Below are positions 5,365-45,202 of a DNA stretch of 64,000 nucleotides, piece by piece. A program made the translations under genes and the position numbers. Each line of letters begins with the position of its first letter. Position 1 is the stretch's first letter. The notes under the pieces were generated by a model, which did no database searches, was not told the DNA's origin, and saw only the letters and a list, made by a program, of their open reading frames with translations. The stretch is from Gemella sp. zg-570 (GTDB taxonomy: Bacteria > Bacillota > Bacilli > Staphylococcales > Gemellaceae): positions 62,001-126,000 of the forward strand of contig NZ_CP076443.1 of the NCBI RefSeq assembly GCF_018866345.1, in the 5' to 3' direction.

Positions 5365-5412
5365 TTAACGTGTTAAATTTATAATAGCACATTATTCAAA
5401 AAATGTAAAGCG
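5365..5412 (-). promoter_or_regulatory. promoter and operator of the sugar-binding protein gene
   Basis: Leftward -35 TTTACA (5404-5409), 17-bp spacer, -10 TATTAT (5381-5386), then the operator-like TTAACGTGTTAAATTT (5365-5380) covering the transcription start. This matches the element at the ATPase operon base for base except at two positions, including the AACGC in front of the -35. Confidence 0.78.
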
Positions 5413-5576
5413 TTTTTAATAATATTTTTTAATTGAATTACTAATTTTTAATTATTTATATTTTTTTATGAAAGCGTAGAAAAAAGTATTAGAAATTTCC
5501 TTTACAAATATATTCTAAAATGATAATATTATATTGATTATTTATAGGTGTTTACTATACATTCGGTGGTGATATA

Positions 5577-6284
5577 ATGAAAAAATATGAAAAAATTATT
5601 AATAATATAATTTTAAAAATAGAAAGTGGCATCTTCAAAGAGGGTGAACAAATATATACAGAAAAAGAAATAAAAGATATTTATAATGTTAGTAGTACAA
5701 CTGCGGTTAGGGTTTTAAATGACTTAGTAAGCAGCGGTTATATTTATAGGGTTCAGGGCAGGGGAAGTTTTGTTTGTAAAACCCTGGTAAATAAAAAAAT
5801 ATATTTTACAGAAAATAATAATTTTAAATATTATTTCAATCCAAAAAATATAGAAAAATCTAAGGTTCTTTCAGCAGAGATAATAGTTGATGAAGAAATA
5901 TGTACAAAATTTTTAAAAATTAAGCCTCAAAAATTACTAAAAGTAAATCGTGTAAAATATATTGATACTATTAATTGGGCCTATCAAGTAAACTATATAC
6001 CCATAAAATATCTTCCTAATATTGATACGGAAAATTTAGAAGATTTTAGTGAATTAGCAACTATGATTAGAAATAAATATCGTATAGATATTCATAAAGA
6101 AAAATTTAAAAAAACTATAAGTGTTACGGTAGGTCTTCCTAAAGAAGTAAAAGACTTGATTGCACCTGATAATGAACCGTGTTTTGAATTTGACAGACAA
6201 ACATTCTTACCAAACGGAAAAATTTTTGAATATGTAAAAATTTATATTAACTACAAATATTACAAAATAGAAATACATGATTAA
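5577..6284 (+). CDS. GntR-family transcriptional regulator with UTRA domain
   Basis: This 235-residue regulator has an N-terminal winged helix (about 1-68; EKEIKDIYNVSSTTAVRVL and GYIYRVQGRGSFV are typical GntR/HutC motifs). A UTRA-type effector domain follows (about 80-235), which usually binds a sugar phosphate or other small metabolite. The ATG follows GGTGGTG. It is transcribed divergently from the sugar-binding protein gene, so it is the obvious candidate to bind the shared operators at 3578, 3727 and 5365. The effector is unknown; ManNAc-6-P or GlcNAc-6-P would be a reasonable guess from nanE. The gene is unusually rich in AT, as expected for a regulator in this genome. Confidence 0.88.
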   Translation: MKKYEKIINNIILKIESGIFKEGEQIYTEKEIKDIYNVSSTTAVRVLNDLVSSGYIYRVQGRGSFVCKTLVNKKIYFTENNNFKYYFNPKNIEKSKVLSAEIIVDEEICTKFLKIKPQKLLKVNRVKYIDTINWAYQVNYIPIKYLPNIDTENLEDFSELATMIRNKYRIDIHKEKFKKTISVTVGLPKEVKDLIAPDNEPCFEFDRQTFLPNGKIFEYVKIYINYKYYKIEIHD

Positions 6285-13432: not shown

Positions 13433-13607
13433 ATTATCCTCCTTCCAATAATTTTTAATATAATTTTTCAATATTTTAATTATAGCATAGTTTTTTAATA
13501 TTTTTTAGAAAATATAGAAATTTTAAAAATAATTCGGAAAAAATAAAATTTTTAACGATATATTTAGTGTCAGAGGCCAAAGACAAAAAATAAAAAGGAG
13601 AAAAATT

Positions 13608-13802
13608 ATGACAACTACACAGAAAATATTAAAATTAAATTACACACTGGAAAAAGCGGCTAAACAGGTAAAAAAAGCTCATTCTTTCGAGATTTCACCG
13701 GAGATTTCTAAGGAAGAGGCAAAAGAGGTGGGCATATTAATGTCAACTATTATATCTGATAATATAGAAGACTATGCTATGCAAGTAACAGAAGCAATAT
13801 AA
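13608..13802 (+). CDS. small protein, DUF1659-like
   Basis: This 64-residue protein (MTTTQKILKLNYTLEKAAKQ...) has an excellent ribosome binding site (AAAGGAG). I assign it to a DUF1659-like group mainly because it precedes a DUF2922 protein and a YvrJ protein, a trio known from Firmicutes. Sequence resemblance alone is weak. Function is unknown. No TTGACA-type promoter is obvious upstream; a GATATATTT element lies at about 13557. Confidence 0.6.
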   Translation: MTTTQKILKLNYTLEKAAKQVKKAHSFEISPEISKEEAKEVGILMSTIISDNIEDYAMQVTEAI

Positions 13803-13819
13803 TAAAGGAGATATAAAAA

Positions 13820-14032
13820 ATGAATAAAACATTAGAACTTATTTTTACAACAGCAGACGATAAAAAATACAAGTTAATTATTAAAAATCCAAAAGAATCT
13901 TTAGATAAGGATACGGTTAGTCAAGTAGGTAGTAAAATTATCGCGACAAAGATATTCAATACTAGCAAAAGAGTTTTGGCAAGTTTTGATAAGGCAGTTT
14001 ATATCATTCGTCAAGAACAAGTGATAGAATAG
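13820..14032 (+). CDS. DUF2922 family protein
   Basis: This 70-residue protein begins MNKTLELIFTTADDKKYKL and contains NPKESLDKDTV. These match the short beta-rich DUF2922 family, whose members typically read as a hydrophobic strand pair followed by a 'KxPKxxLxxxxV' segment. Function is unknown. The start follows AAAGGAG, 17 bp after the preceding gene. Confidence 0.78.
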   Translation: MNKTLELIFTTADDKKYKLIIKNPKESLDKDTVSQVGSKIIATKIFNTSKRVLASFDKAVYIIRQEQVIE

Positions 14033-14037
14033 GAGCT

Positions 14038-14059
14038 TAGGCTGGGTTAGACCAGCCTA
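14038..14059 (+). other. hairpin between the DUF2922 and YvrJ genes
   Basis: Perfect arms TAGGCTGG and CCAGCCTA with a 6-base loop. It begins 5 bp after the DUF2922 stop and ends 10 bp before the YvrJ start. No T run follows, so it is more likely an mRNA stability or processing element than a terminator. It probably lowers or tunes translation of the weakly initiated YvrJ gene. Confidence 0.55.
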
Positions 14060-14069
14060 AATCATTGAT

Positions 14070-14240
14070 ATGGATATTATAAATATAATAAATTCTGTCG
14101 GTTTTCCAATATTTGTTTCAGTCTTTTTCTTATTAAAATTAGATAATAGCTTGAAGATAATAGCGGAAAAATTAGCAGAATTGAATAAGACAATAAATAA
14201 TTATACCGATATAAATAAAAAAATACCGCCACAAAATTGA
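14070..14240 (+). CDS. yvrJ: YvrJ-family small membrane protein
   Basis: This 56-residue protein reads MDIINIINSVGFPIFVSVFF and then LLKLDNSLKIIAEKL. The motif SVGFPI in the first membrane helix followed by an amphipathic charged helix is characteristic of the YvrJ family. Function is unknown. In Bacillus subtilis, yvrJ lies next to the SigO/RsoA sigma system. Here a sigma region 4-like gene lies less than 1 kb away. There is no clear Shine-Dalgarno, only the upstream hairpin. Confidence 0.75.
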   Translation: MDIINIINSVGFPIFVSVFFLLKLDNSLKIIAEKLAELNKTINNYTDINKKIPPQN

Positions 14241-14253
14241 TGGGCTGGTATTT

Positions 14254-14487
14254 TTAGTGGGCATAAATTTCTATTTCATTGACATCATATTTGGTAAAAT
14301 CTTCATTGATAATATGATTTAATTCTTGCTTATAAGTTTTTTCTAGCTGGGCTTGACTAAATTTAGAATTTAAAAATATTGTGTAAGAGCCATCTTCGTT
14401 TGGAGTAGCACAACCCTTTACCTTGCAAGAATGCAAATCACGAATTTCAACATTTATGCAAATATCATTTATATAAGTAGTGTACAT
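14254..14487 (-). CDS. ImmA/IrrE-like protein lacking the first zinc ligand
   Basis: This 77-residue protein resembles the short phage-type ImmA-like metallopeptidases that accompany XRE repressors, with a C-terminal pattern ELNHIINEDFTKYDVNEIE. The family motif HExxH would be HELNH here, but the sequence reads QELNH (residues about 54-58), so the first zinc-binding histidine is replaced. It is encoded 1 bp after the XRE gene in the same operon. It may be catalytically inactive, act by binding only, or be decaying. Confidence 0.7.
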   Translation of the reverse strand: MYTTYINDICINVEIRDLHSCKVKGCATPNEDGSYTIFLNSKFSQAQLEKTYKQELNHIINEDFTKYDVNEIEIYAH

Positions 14488-14488
14488 A

Positions 14489-14848
14489 TTATTCCCTCTC
14501 TTTTAGATTTAATAAAAGATTTGTTACTAGCTGCAAATCTTCAGGACTAGCATTTCTACTAGCATCAAAAAGTATGCGTAAGTTATCATTTTCAAAAATA
14601 TCCTCTGCAATTTCCCGAGTATTCTCATCAAAATAGTAGCCCTCATCACTATCCCAACCGTAGAGATAGGCTGGACTTGTTCCTAGTGCCTTGGCTAATA
14701 ATTCTATTTTTTCTTTGGGTATGTTGGTGATAATACCTTGTTCATACTTATATAGGGTTTGTCTTGATGAATCTATGAGTTTACCTAGTTCATCAAGAGT
14801 ATATTTTTTTTTAAGACGTAAATTTTTAATTTTGTCGCCGACTGTCAT
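14489..14848 (-). CDS. XRE-family repressor, phage type
   Basis: This 119-residue protein has an N-terminal helix-turn-helix (TVGDKIKNLRLKKKYTLDEL, then GKLIDSSRQTLYKYEQG). A segment LGTSPAYLYGWD follows, seen in phage CI-like and ICE repressors. The C-terminal half is short and acidic. I place the start at the ATG at 14848 because AAGGGG lies 8 bp upstream; a GTG at 14857 is also in frame. It forms an operon with the ImmA-like gene and is divergent from the sigma-like gene at 15046, the usual arrangement of a repressor and its target. Confidence 0.82.
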   Translation of the reverse strand: MTVGDKIKNLRLKKKYTLDELGKLIDSSRQTLYKYEQGIITNIPKEKIELLAKALGTSPAYLYGWDSDEGYYFDENTREIAEDIFENDNLRILFDASRNASPEDLQLVTNLLLNLKERE

Positions 14849-14916
14849 AACAATCACCCCTTAGACTAAGTATAATATTTTTTAACTTAAAAAGCAACAA
14901 AAACATTTTATAGAAC

Positions 14917-15032
14917 TTGACAAGATACACAATTAAATGTTATTATAATTTCGACAAGGAGTTTCAGAGCAAAATAAAAATTCTAGCAAGAAAAGAAAAT
15001 TTTTTTGCTTATTATGTAACTTTTAAAGTTAC
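14917..15032 (+). promoter_or_regulatory. promoter and palindrome in front of the sigma-like gene
   Basis: A TTGACA at 14917-14922 is followed after 17 bp by TTATTA, with TATAAT just downstream at 14944-14949. A perfect 17-bp palindrome, GTAACTTTTAAAGTTAC (15016-15032), ends 2 bp before the AAAGGAGG ribosome binding site. It could be an operator for the divergent XRE repressor or an RNA hairpin that controls access to the ribosome binding site. Confidence 0.6.
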
Positions 15033-15045
15033 AAAGGAGGATAGT

Positions 15046-15363
15046 ATGAATAAGAAGTATATAGAATATTTATTAAGGAATGCCTATAGATTAGAAAAAG
15101 ACTTGTTAAAAGAAGGGGAAAATAAGTTGGATATAAGAGAATATCTAAATAAGGAGGAACAAATAAAGTTGGTGAAAGATGTTTTGACTACCATAAATTT
15201 TTACAACAGCCTTGATATAGTTTATAAGGAGGCTATGCTCTTGCGTTATGTTAAAAATTATTTGATAAAAGAGGTTGCCGAGAAAACTCATTTTTCCCAG
15301 TCGCACCTAAAGGCAATTTTTAAGGAATGTAAGAGTGAGTTAGCTGAAAAAATTAGTGCGTAA
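15046..15363 (+). CDS. sigma region 4-like helix-turn-helix regulator
   Basis: This 105-residue protein starts at an ATG with a near-perfect AAAGGAGG site; the frame is open upstream but without a comparable site. The C-terminal 50 residues (EAMLLRYVKNYLIKEVAEKT, then HFSQSHLKAIFKECKSEL) look like the DNA-binding region 4 of sigma-70 proteins. Phage ArpU-type late regulators also share this fold. The N-terminal half is charged and helical. No region 2 is present, so it cannot be a full sigma factor. It could act like RsoA-type split sigma partners or as a phage-like activator. Confidence 0.65.
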   Translation: MNKKYIEYLLRNAYRLEKDLLKEGENKLDIREYLNKEEQIKLVKDVLTTINFYNSLDIVYKEAMLLRYVKNYLIKEVAEKTHFSQSHLKAIFKECKSELAEKISA

Positions 15364-15661: not shown

Positions 15662-15886
15662 ATGAGTGTCCCTATTTCTGTAAGATTTGATGAAAATGTA
15701 AATAAATTTTTAACACATGTTGTTAAAGAAAAAAATACAACAAAAACAGATTTTATAAGACAAGCTGTAATGGAAAAGTTAGAAGATTTGTACGATATAG
15801 AAATGGCTGATAAATCTTATAAAAAATGGCTGGAAGATGATAAAAAAACTTTTTCACATAAAGAAGCGATGAAAAGATATGGCTAA
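15662..15886 (+). CDS. RelB-type ribbon-helix-helix antitoxin
   Basis: This 74-residue protein has an N-terminal ribbon-helix-helix (MSVPISVRFDENVNKFL, then TKTDFIRQAV), which binds DNA and dimerises. Its flexible C-terminus (KKWLEDDKKTFSHKEAMKRY) would wrap the toxin. The start follows AAGGAG. It overlaps the toxin gene by 8 bp, the standard layout of type II modules. It should repress its own promoter. Confidence 0.9.
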   Translation: MSVPISVRFDENVNKFLTHVVKEKNTTKTDFIRQAVMEKLEDLYDIEMADKSYKKWLEDDKKTFSHKEAMKRYG

Positions 15887-16148
15887 ATATAAAGTTGAGT
15901 ACATGCAAAGTTTTTTCGATGATTTGGACAAACTAGATAGTGGACTAAGAAGGCAAATTATGAAATGGATAGATAAACATTTAAACGATGTTGATTTTCC
16001 TACTTCTCCTGGCAAACATTTAAAAGGTAACCTAGCTGATTATGTTAGATTTAGGGTGTCAAATTATCGTATAATTGCAATATTAGATGATAAAAAATTA
16101 ATAATAACAAATATTCATGTTGGACATAGGTCAGAAATATATAATTAA
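15879..16148 (+). CDS. RelE/ParE-family toxin
   Basis: This 89-residue protein has the RelE fold signatures KYKVEYMQSFFDDLDKLD, GKHLKGNLADYVRFRVSNYR and the C-terminal strand HVGHRSEIY. Family members cleave mRNA in the ribosome (RelE branch) or poison gyrase (ParE branch). The 'YRIIAILDDKKLIITNI' segment and the His/Arg/Tyr-rich C-terminus favour a RelE-like ribonuclease, but this cannot be settled from the sequence alone. It is translationally coupled to the antitoxin. Confidence 0.9.
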   Translation: MAKYKVEYMQSFFDDLDKLDSGLRRQIMKWIDKHLNDVDFPTSPGKHLKGNLADYVRFRVSNYRIIAILDDKKLIITNIHVGHRSEIYN

Positions 16149-43499: not shown

Positions 43500-44606
43500 A
43501 TGAATTTATTTTCTGTCTCAAAAGAAAAATACAGTTTAATGTTTTATATTTCTTTATTTTGGCTAATTTTTCCTTTTTACTACACCTATACAGGTGATTA
43601 CCCTGCTTATATGTTTTACTTAACAGTTATAATGGGATTTTGCTATATCGCTTCACTCTATCTAGAAAATAAATTTATTTCTTATCTTATGTGGAGTTAT
43701 ATGTGCCTTTATTCTTTGGCTAGTGCTTTAATTTTTTCAGTATTTAATAGTATGATGTTTATTTATCATAGTTCTCTGATAAATTATAAGTATAAGGATA
43801 CCAATATAAAATCTTTTAGACACCTTAGTTTTTTTCTCTGTATAGCCATAATTTATATAAATTACAGCTTATTAAGTAATGCAAAATTTTATGAGCGTTT
43901 TGTTGGTCTTGTCCTAGTTACGCTGTGTTTAATTATGCACCTATCCGCTAGACTTAATATTTTAACGGCTGAGAAGGAATATGAAAAATTAAAACACAAT
44001 GAATATATTAATAATCTTCTTGCAGAAAATGAAAGAAATCGTATAGGTCGTGATTTGCATGATACACTGGGTCATGTTTTTGCAACTTTGAGCCTAAAAT
44101 CAGATCTAGCCATAAAATTTTTGGAAAGAGAAAAATACCTAGAAGCTAAACAAGAAATAGCAGAATTTAATAGCATAACAAAGGATACTTCAAAACAAAT
44201 TCGTCAGATAATAAATAATCTAAATTATAGAACTTTAGAAGAAGAACTTTATCTAACCAAAGAAATTTTAGACTTGGCAAATATAAGATTTGAAATTCAT
44301 GAAAATTTTGCTAAGGGCAACCTATCTCCGATAGAACAGTCAACACTTGCTATGGTACTAAGAGAATGTATCAATAATATTTTAAAACATAGCGAAGCAA
44401 CTTTTTGTAAAATAACTTTTCAAGAAGATGTAAAAGAATTAGCCTTTTATATAGAAGATAATGGTAAGGGTTTTGGGAATTTGACTGGTAAAGAATTAAA
44501 AAGTATTAAGGAAAGAATAATACTAGTAGACGGTAAGGTCGCAATAGAAAATATAAAAAATCCGACACAGATAAAAATAACTATTCCAAAAGGAGTAACA
44601 AAATGA
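43500..44606 (+). CDS. sensor histidine kinase, DesK/NarX type
   Basis: This 368-residue kinase has an N-terminal bundle of five to six membrane helices (about 10-160). The HisKA_3 motif [18 protein letters not shown] carries the phosphorylated histidine at about residue 188. The HATPase fold has [14 protein letters not shown] and EDNGKGF segments. It overlaps the response regulator gene by 4 bp (ATGA). This kinase group senses membrane state or cell-envelope compounds through its helices. Confidence 0.9.
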
Positions 44607-45202
44607 AAATATTACTAGCAGAAGACCAAAGTATGTTAAGAGATGCCCTAGCCAAACTTTTGCTTTTAGAAGATGATGTAAAAAATGTTATTCAAGCAAG
44701 TAATGGTGTAGAAGCCCAAGACTTATTAAGCCAAGATAATTTTGATGTTGCAATACTAGATGTAGAAATACCGGTCAAGACAGGTTTAGACGTCTTAGAA
44801 TATATCAAAGAAAATAATATGGCTACCAAGGTAATTATCGTTACAACCTTTAAAAGAAGAGGTTATTTCCAAAGGGCAATAAAAAATAATGTTGACGCCT
44901 ATGTTTTAAAAGATAGGTCAATAGAAGAATTGATGACTACTATCAGGAGAGTTTTGCAGGGAAAAAAAGAATATTCACCAGAACTTATGGAAAATATTGT
45001 TTTGTCTGATAATATTTTATCAGCCCAAGAAATAAAAATATTATTGCTTATTGAAAGTGGTTTGAGCAATAAAGAAATTGCTAAAAAAATGTATCTGTCA
45101 GAGGGAACGGTAAGAAACTATATTTCTAATATTCTAAATAAACTTGATGCAAGTAATAGGCTAGCAGCTCTTAATGTGGCTAAAGATAGAGGATTTTTAT
45201 AA
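44603..45202 (+). CDS. response regulator, LuxR/NarL type
   Basis: This 199-residue regulator has a receiver domain ([18 protein letters not shown]; phosphorylated Asp in [10 protein letters not shown] near residue 53; Lys in AYVLKDRS). The LuxR-type helix-turn-helix reads [20 protein letters not shown] and then [19 protein letters not shown]. It is cotranscribed with the kinase. A piece of its own 3' end is duplicated just downstream (45276-45413). Confidence 0.92.

Follow-up and report, generated by a model that had tools for sequence, protein, structure and literature searches.

The DUF1659-DUF2922-YvrJ triad of Gemella sp. zg-570 is a conserved chromosomal set and not a companion of the XRE/ImmA/region-4 group that lies beside it. 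With about even confidence, the comparison of sequences leads us to read the three genes as the central part of a release or lysis system that is encoded on the chromosomes of Bacilli and depends on a holin, and the neighboring group as a phage-type switch for a lysin. Gene order, conservation, lysin neighbors, and operator-like sites were obtained by comparison, and from these we infer holin action, lysin export, repressor binding and derepression, and any role of DUF1659 and DUF2922.

The window, meaning the whole stretch of DNA analyzed, comprises 64 kb of a 1.56-Mb single-contig genome, and its gene calls were the longest ORFs. The ORF list and profile searches located the triad and the regulators where the original prediction had placed them (Table 1). 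Three small genes (DUF1659-like, DUF2922, and YvrJ) occupy 13608-14240 of the plus strand. The mini-ImmA/XRE pair is convergent with YvrJ, with 13 bp between them, and the region-4-like gene is divergent from the XRE gene and is followed at some distance by a RelB/ParE pair. Read by eye, the ORFs of the window are core genes, and no integrase, packaging, or structural genes were found nearby that would mark a prophage. The original statement that no other phage gene is present therefore holds for the window but not for two relatives, in which an endolysin gene lies directly behind the region-4 gene. A TIGR02937 match at 44603-45202 (~200 aa) was rejected as a sigma factor, as it reads as a LuxR-type response regulator.

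Table 1. Genes and regulatory sites at the triad locus, in window positions.
Feature	Position	Strand	Evidence
Private triad promoter: GGAAAA (13536-13541), ~14-nt spacer, CGATATATTTAG (from 13556)	13536..13569	+	Alignment of 14 Gemellaceae
Conserved leader element TGTCAGAGGCCAAAGACA	13568..13585	+	Exactly once in 14/15 Gemellaceae genomes
DUF1659-like protein, 64 aa	13608..13802	+	Operon-position HMM; model bbab, pLDDT 69.5
DUF2922 protein, 70 aa	13820..14032	+	PF11148 E 1.5e-19; model bbab, pLDDT 84.9
YvrJ-family holin-like protein, 56 aa, one predicted membrane segment	14070..14240	+	PF12841 E 2.6e-7; phrog_4898 'holin' E 8.5e-8; hydropathy maximum 2.22
Mini-ImmA-like protein, 77 aa, QELNH replaces first zinc histidine	14254..14487	-	phrog_20886 E 7.3e-19; alignment with GL1, S13M_Sa_16
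XRE repressor, CapH-like, 119 aa	14489..14848	-	HTH_3 E 1.4e-13; PADLOC capH E 2.2e-11
Operator-like site O1, in XRE promoter region	14883..14897	+	TAACTTAAAAAGCAA, 1 mismatch
Operator-like site O2, overlaps -35 box of region-4 gene	14913..14927	+	GAACTTGACAAGATA, 1 mismatch; conserved in relatives
Promoter of region-4 gene (TTGACA-18-TATTAT)	14917..14946	+	11/12 match, best in region
Operator-like site O3, core of palindrome TGTAACTTTTAAAGTTACA	15017..15031	+	Exact match; related sites in relatives
Stand-alone sigma region-4-like protein, 105 aa	15046..15363	+	Profile searches; homologues in G010, G012, G013, 43-47% identity
RelB-family antitoxin, neighbor, separate promoter likely	15662..15886	+	NF046040 E 9.1e-20
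ParE/RelE-family toxin, neighbor	15879..16148	+	PF05016 E 4.1e-10

DUF2922 was present in all 15 Gemellaceae genomes, in 156 of 157 genomes of the order, and in 237 of 398 genomes sampled from the class (92 of 146 genera), and the triad occurred in 15 of 15 Gemellaceae. XRE and region-4 genes stood beside it in 4 and ImmA in 3 of these 15 genomes. By the refuting condition set in the original prediction, the proposed tie of the triad to XRE, ImmA, and region 4 thus fails at the level of the family, while within the genus alone they co-occur in 4 of 6 genomes. A further 114 loci were collected (14 from Gemellaceae, 20 from elsewhere in the order, and 80 from the class), making 115 with the window. 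By HMM, all three genes were found at 71 of the 115 loci, DUF1659 and DUF2922 without YvrJ at 38, DUF2922 and YvrJ at 1, and DUF2922 alone at 5. YvrJ was absent by HMM from 43 loci, including all of the about five Staphylococcus-type loci sampled, and in three of the six loci without a DUF1659 call (L018, L150, and L177) a DUF1659-like frame was seen by eye. It is these 71 complete triads, together with regulators beside the triad in only 4 of 15 family members, that separate the triad from the regulators.

The arrangement of the triad varied in several ways. Three genomes (G386, G265, and G285) carried four or five DUF2922 copies as opposed to the usual single copy, two of those in G386 lying 3.5 kb apart on one small contig. 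In many Staphylococcales-like genomes (L074-L084), sbcD-sbcC follow immediately after the triad, which is itself divergent from DUF2621, a synteny that extends across the order. In the Staphylococcus-type loci L085, L086, L088, L091, and L092, a short tyrosine-recombinase-like gene is divergent from DUF1659-DUF2922, and YvrJ is missing.

The DUF2922 protein of the window scored 70.1 bits against PF11148, with a cut-off of 25.5. The first triad gene gave no match to Pfam DUF1659 (PF07872) at E<=1. An HMM was built from 91 non-Gemellaceae genes at the DUF1659 position, a family which we take to be Pfam's DUF1659, and recovered all 14 Gemellaceae versions supplied (window copy E 0.0026; profile-profile E 6e-7). 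As all 14 copies were recognized, the label “DUF1659-like” stands despite the absent Pfam match. Both proteins were modelled as small bbab folds, for which no structural matches were obtained at E<=0.001, and a reading of the two as clear paralogues was dropped on a weak profile comparison (probability 24%).

YvrJ scored 30.5 bits against PF12841, just above the cut-off of 29.5, and has the form of a short membrane protein expected of a holin, with one hydrophobic segment reaching its hydropathy maximum at residue 6. Adjacency to an endolysin, a further mark of a holin, was observed in 10 of 15 Gemellaceae and in viral loci, while the window locus has no lysin. A scan of IMG/VR found 25 viral YvrJ loci. 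Among the 20 inspected by eye, a lysin-like gene lay directly behind YvrJ in 12 and none in 8, and several of these pairs were followed by what by eye is a phi29-type packaging ATPase. Pfam searches of nine of the 12 lysin-like genes returned seven peptidoglycan hydrolases (three GH25, three phage lysozymes, and one NlpC/Amidase_5) and two proteins with CW_7 only. No INPHARED phage matched the YvrJ of the window or a Bacillus DUF2922, and a phage origin of the triad by way of that collection was set aside.

A CHAP(-SH3) lysin was the first gene after YvrJ in those 10 Gemellaceae, and the first downstream gene was GH25 in 5 and M15 in 1 of 100 non-Gemellaceae loci; these lysin types are unrelated to each other. 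In L171, the first downstream gene was called glucosaminidase-like on inspection by eye instead of by Pfam, and its product appears to have a signal peptide. Lysins were the first downstream gene in 17 of 115 loci and the upstream gene in 0 of 113, while genes for full-length sigma-70 factors stood directly upstream of DUF1659 in 11 of 113 loci and downstream in 0 of 115, zeros that are partly built in, since the downstream genes supplied the lysin queries and the upstream genes the sigma profile. Pfam neighbor tallies, independent of those queries, cover the 25 most frequent of 77 and of 64 families; by Pfam region 2, the upstream neighbor was a sigma-70 gene in 8 of 113 loci. The first downstream gene was not a lysin in 98 of 115 loci, with sbcD-type Metallophos (13) and SCO1 (10) among the families listed. 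Without the Gemellaceae lysins, 7 downstream compare with 0 upstream (Fisher p 0.014), and as 10 of the 17 downstream lysins come from that one family, Fisher values overstate independence. Within a single family the link to lysins is strong; outside it, lysin neighbors are scattered. The predicted link between sigma factor and triad appears elsewhere in the Bacilli, in the 11 upstream cases; the region-4 gene itself accompanies the triad in 4 of the 15 Gemellaceae.

None of the 16 Pfam-supported lysins and two amidases has a signal-peptide-like stretch: the maximum 17-residue hydropathy in their first 45 residues was 0.24-1.34, compared with 2.22 for the YvrJ segment. One CHAP gene (G007) appears frame-broken. 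In L150 and L185, sigma, DUF1659, DUF2922, and GH25 genes form one directon. The host genome has a CHAP lysin of 241 aa (L388:578-1303) of the type seen in the family, behind rpoD and ~930 kb from the window locus; this solitary CHAP-SH3-type gene follows dnaG-rpoD and has tiny HTH genes in its vicinity, and the 9-kb stretch around it yielded no triad gene.

The small size, conservation, and co-expression of DUF1659 and DUF2922, which are likewise signal-less, also suit a system in which YvrJ exports without lysis in the manner of UviA/UviB/Bcn5 or TcdR/TcdE, the two proteins being the released cargo and the lysin only opening the wall. The sigma genes upstream of 11 of 113 triads fit this reading, as does the joint occurrence of sigma factor, single-pass holin, and amidase, as in the Bcn5 loci of an excerpt from PMC9527704. 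A near-universal single-copy gene set would, however, be unusual for a bacteriocin, and we consider export without lysis unlikely.

Upstream of the triad, Gemellaceae share the pattern GGAA(A)-N-CGATATATA, followed by the leader TGTCNNNGGCCNAAGACA. The exact -10 string CGATATATWTARTG occurs once per genome and always at the triad in the 8 of 15 Gemellaceae with an exact match. In the 14 genomes carrying one exact copy of the leader, it always precedes the triad (reversed control 0), and G013 has a shorter variant. No Rfam match was found for the leader at E<=1, and a known RNA leader was set aside. The promoter of the 20 other members of the order is TTGTCCAT-N14-17-CGATATATAgaG (motif score 27.6 vs 12.4 shuffled), and a related pattern was found in many of 75 class loci (13.8 vs 9.1). 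The triad promoter bears no XRE operator-like sites, so XRE was rejected as acting on the triad; LexA/SOS control was likewise rejected, since the fetched regions contain LexA-type boxes in other places and none at the triad promoter.

RpoD is the sole Pfam region-2 protein in 14 of 15 Gemellaceae genomes. Gemellaceae also carry a divergent sigma gene of 171-172 aa below the Pfam region-2 threshold (L342:1065-1580, L338:2317-2835, L344:2060-2578), which we label ComX-like, the profiles assigning it only to the sigma-70 family. That of the host genome is L342:1065-1580, and in G002 the gene lies ~7 kb from the triad.

In B. subtilis, SigO-RsoA transcribes yvrJ, according to part of PMC8103513, and sigma genes are linked to the triad in other genera, from which the region-4-like protein might be taken as a dedicated activator of the triad promoter, as the original prediction proposed. 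This is very improbable, and the promoter itself speaks against it, being conserved in Gemellaceae without a region-4 gene beside the triad (10 of 11 aligned). As that promoter also lacks operator-like sites, it is probably not read by the region-4 protein as a sigma factor; the protein has no region 2, and RpoD stands as the only Pfam region-2 protein in nearly all of these genomes.

Placement of the triad in a competence-type (ComX/SigH-like) regulon, for fratricide or DNA release, is suggested by ComX-like sigma factors adjoining the DUF1659-DUF2922 pair in L124, L150, and L185, by the similar gene in the host genome, and by comGA in 15 of 15 Gemellaceae. To this may be added the triad -10 CGATATA, which we take to resemble a competence box. 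In the upstream stretches parsed (about half of 15), however, no CGATATA stands before the comGA of Gemella, which led us to reject a competence promoter for the triad, and the triad promoter differs from the Listeria/Bacillus SigH consensus given in a section of PMC4754846; the competence reading is accordingly quite improbable. At some loci of other Staphylococcales, comGA has a look-alike of CGATATA, C(T/C)ATATATAGGG, close to its start. A conserved hairpin (TAGGCTA...TAGCCTA with a T run), possibly a conditional terminator, was observed just 5' of comGA in the Gemella loci L223, L227, L229, and L230.

The description of the region-4-like protein as region 4-only and sigma-like is clear for the homologue in GL1 (Sigma70_r4 E 3e-9), whereas the protein of the window gives a weak match that stays below the cut-off (Sigma70_r4_2 E 0.0028). 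With region 4 only, where a sigma-70 factor has regions 2 and 4, it is not claimed as a sigma factor. The ORF start at TTG 14917 was discarded as too early; the Shine-Dalgarno sequence and the homologues place the start at ATG 15046, behind AAAGGAGG. The gap between the XRE and region-4 genes holds three TAACTTNNNAAGNTA-like sites, one of them over the -35 box of the best promoter of the region, and related operator-like sites occur in GL1, S13M_Sa_16, and G013. No other such cluster of three occurs in the 64 kb, and simulation of 60 windows produced none. Across whole genomes, matches to the operator pattern are not much more frequent than those to its reversed control (e.g., 7 vs 4 in G000), so that only the clustering is unusual.

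The ImmA of the window has QELNH in place of HExxH, where relatives have HE(I/M)xH (HEIKH, HEMSH), and is probably inactive. The region-4 gene of both GL1 and S13M_Sa_16 shares 17 bp with an Amidase_2+CW_7 endolysin gene and is therefore probably co-transcribed with it. G013 has the same HTH (67% identity over 66 residues) fused to an S24 domain, and no ImmA call was made at that locus; with ImmA in the others, two different proteolytic exits appear to serve one switch. The genes flanking the G013 switch encode a PBECR4 nuclease-like protein and a PemK/MazF-like toxin (L249:3405-3935, 5403-5750), with no lysin. The amidase endolysin of GL1 and S13M_Sa_16 is absent from the 64 kb of the window. 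With this lysin gone, the zinc histidine lost, and a CHAP lysin elsewhere, the lysin arm of Gemella sp. zg-570 looks degraded. An independent regulated module of unknown purpose had been suggested for the locus: the region-4 gene does belong to a regulated module, but the product of that module in two relatives is an endolysin.

The locus could also consist of two unrelated neighbors, an ancient housekeeping triad, perhaps related to the envelope or to DNA, and a mobile-element remnant (XRE/ImmA/region-4 with an endolysin or toxins) in a hot spot. The triad occurs in 156 of 157 genomes of the order as against the switch in 4 of 15 of the family, and the triad promoter is free of XRE operators. 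The cargo behind the region-4 gene also varies (amidase, PemK toxin, ParE/RelB, and the PBECR4 nuclease nearby in G013). On the other hand, the same switch occupies the same spot in four genomes, and its inserted arm brings a lysin beside a holin-family gene to which other members of the family already add a lysin of another kind. An unsystematic look noticed no integrase or attachment-site repeats. Chance neighborhood is in our estimate rather unlikely.

Under the preferred reading of a holin-dependent release system, the triad would be transcribed from its own conserved promoter, and YvrJ, a small single-pass holin-like protein, would let a signal-less endolysin out of the cytoplasm, perhaps along with the co-expressed DUF1659 and DUF2922 proteins. 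The XRE repressor would bind the three operators and silence the region-4-like gene, which in two relatives is probably co-transcribed with the amidase endolysin gene, and ImmA-type or S24-type proteolysis would lift the repression. In Gemella sp. zg-570, the switch would persist with its lysin missing and its ImmA probably inactive, the CHAP lysin remaining elsewhere. Extended tentatively to the Bacilli as a whole, a usually single-copy chromosomal cassette may run holin-dependent release, with DUF1659 and DUF2922 as cargo or timing partners, YvrJ as the pore, and an interchangeable endolysin (CHAP, GH25, M15, Amidase_2) in cis or trans. Control would rest with its own sigma factor in some lineages and with one private promoter in Gemellaceae, while Gemella relatives would place the lysin under a miniature lysogeny switch.

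DUF1659, DUF2922, and YvrJ count among the small genes that many Bacilli retain and that are unstudied. When the text of 5.39 million open papers was searched for the three names, none of the papers returned dealt with the function of the genes, judged by titles and abstract openings. Should the triad prove to be a holin-type release system, a testable function would be gained for a gene family present in many species, along with a candidate route for the release of DNA, vesicles, or enzymes without a prophage.

Among known systems, phage holin-endolysin pairs of the phi29 type (PHROG 4898) also have a YvrJ-family protein whose gene immediately precedes one for GH25, lysozyme, or amidase. The triad differs in being chromosomal and near-universal in the order, with DUF1659 and DUF2922 preceding YvrJ and no virion or packaging genes. 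SigO-RsoA-YvrJ of Bacillus subtilis, as far as portions of PMC8103513 describe it, likewise links YvrJ to a split sigma factor, but RsoA and oxalate genes were not seen at the Gemella locus. In 14 control genomes, DUF2922 matched in Thermotoga maritima only, so that B. subtilis would have no DUF2922 if it is among the controls, per the PF00437 control list. CapH/CapP and ImmR/ImmA resemble the Gemella pair in the small XRE protein next to a small ImmA-like protein, and CapP cleaves CapH on ssDNA (excerpt of PMC10904395). The Gemella pair differs in facing a region-4 gene, with a lysin in relatives; no CBASS or ICE genes were seen in the window, and the ImmA of the window is without the first zinc histidine. 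UviA/UviB/Bcn5 and TcdR/TcdE of clostridia share a sigma factor, a small holin-like protein, an amidase, and signal-less cargo (parts of PMC9527704; PMC3369941). The triad, in contrast, comes without a toxin or known bacteriocin, and has a region-4-only protein instead of a full sigma factor, as well as XRE/ImmA control. Parts analogous to those of the UviA/UviB type occur in GL1 and S13M_Sa_16, and to judge by the extract of PMC9527704 the triad system may work like UviA/UviB and TcdR/TcdE, a likeness offered as analogy and not as membership.
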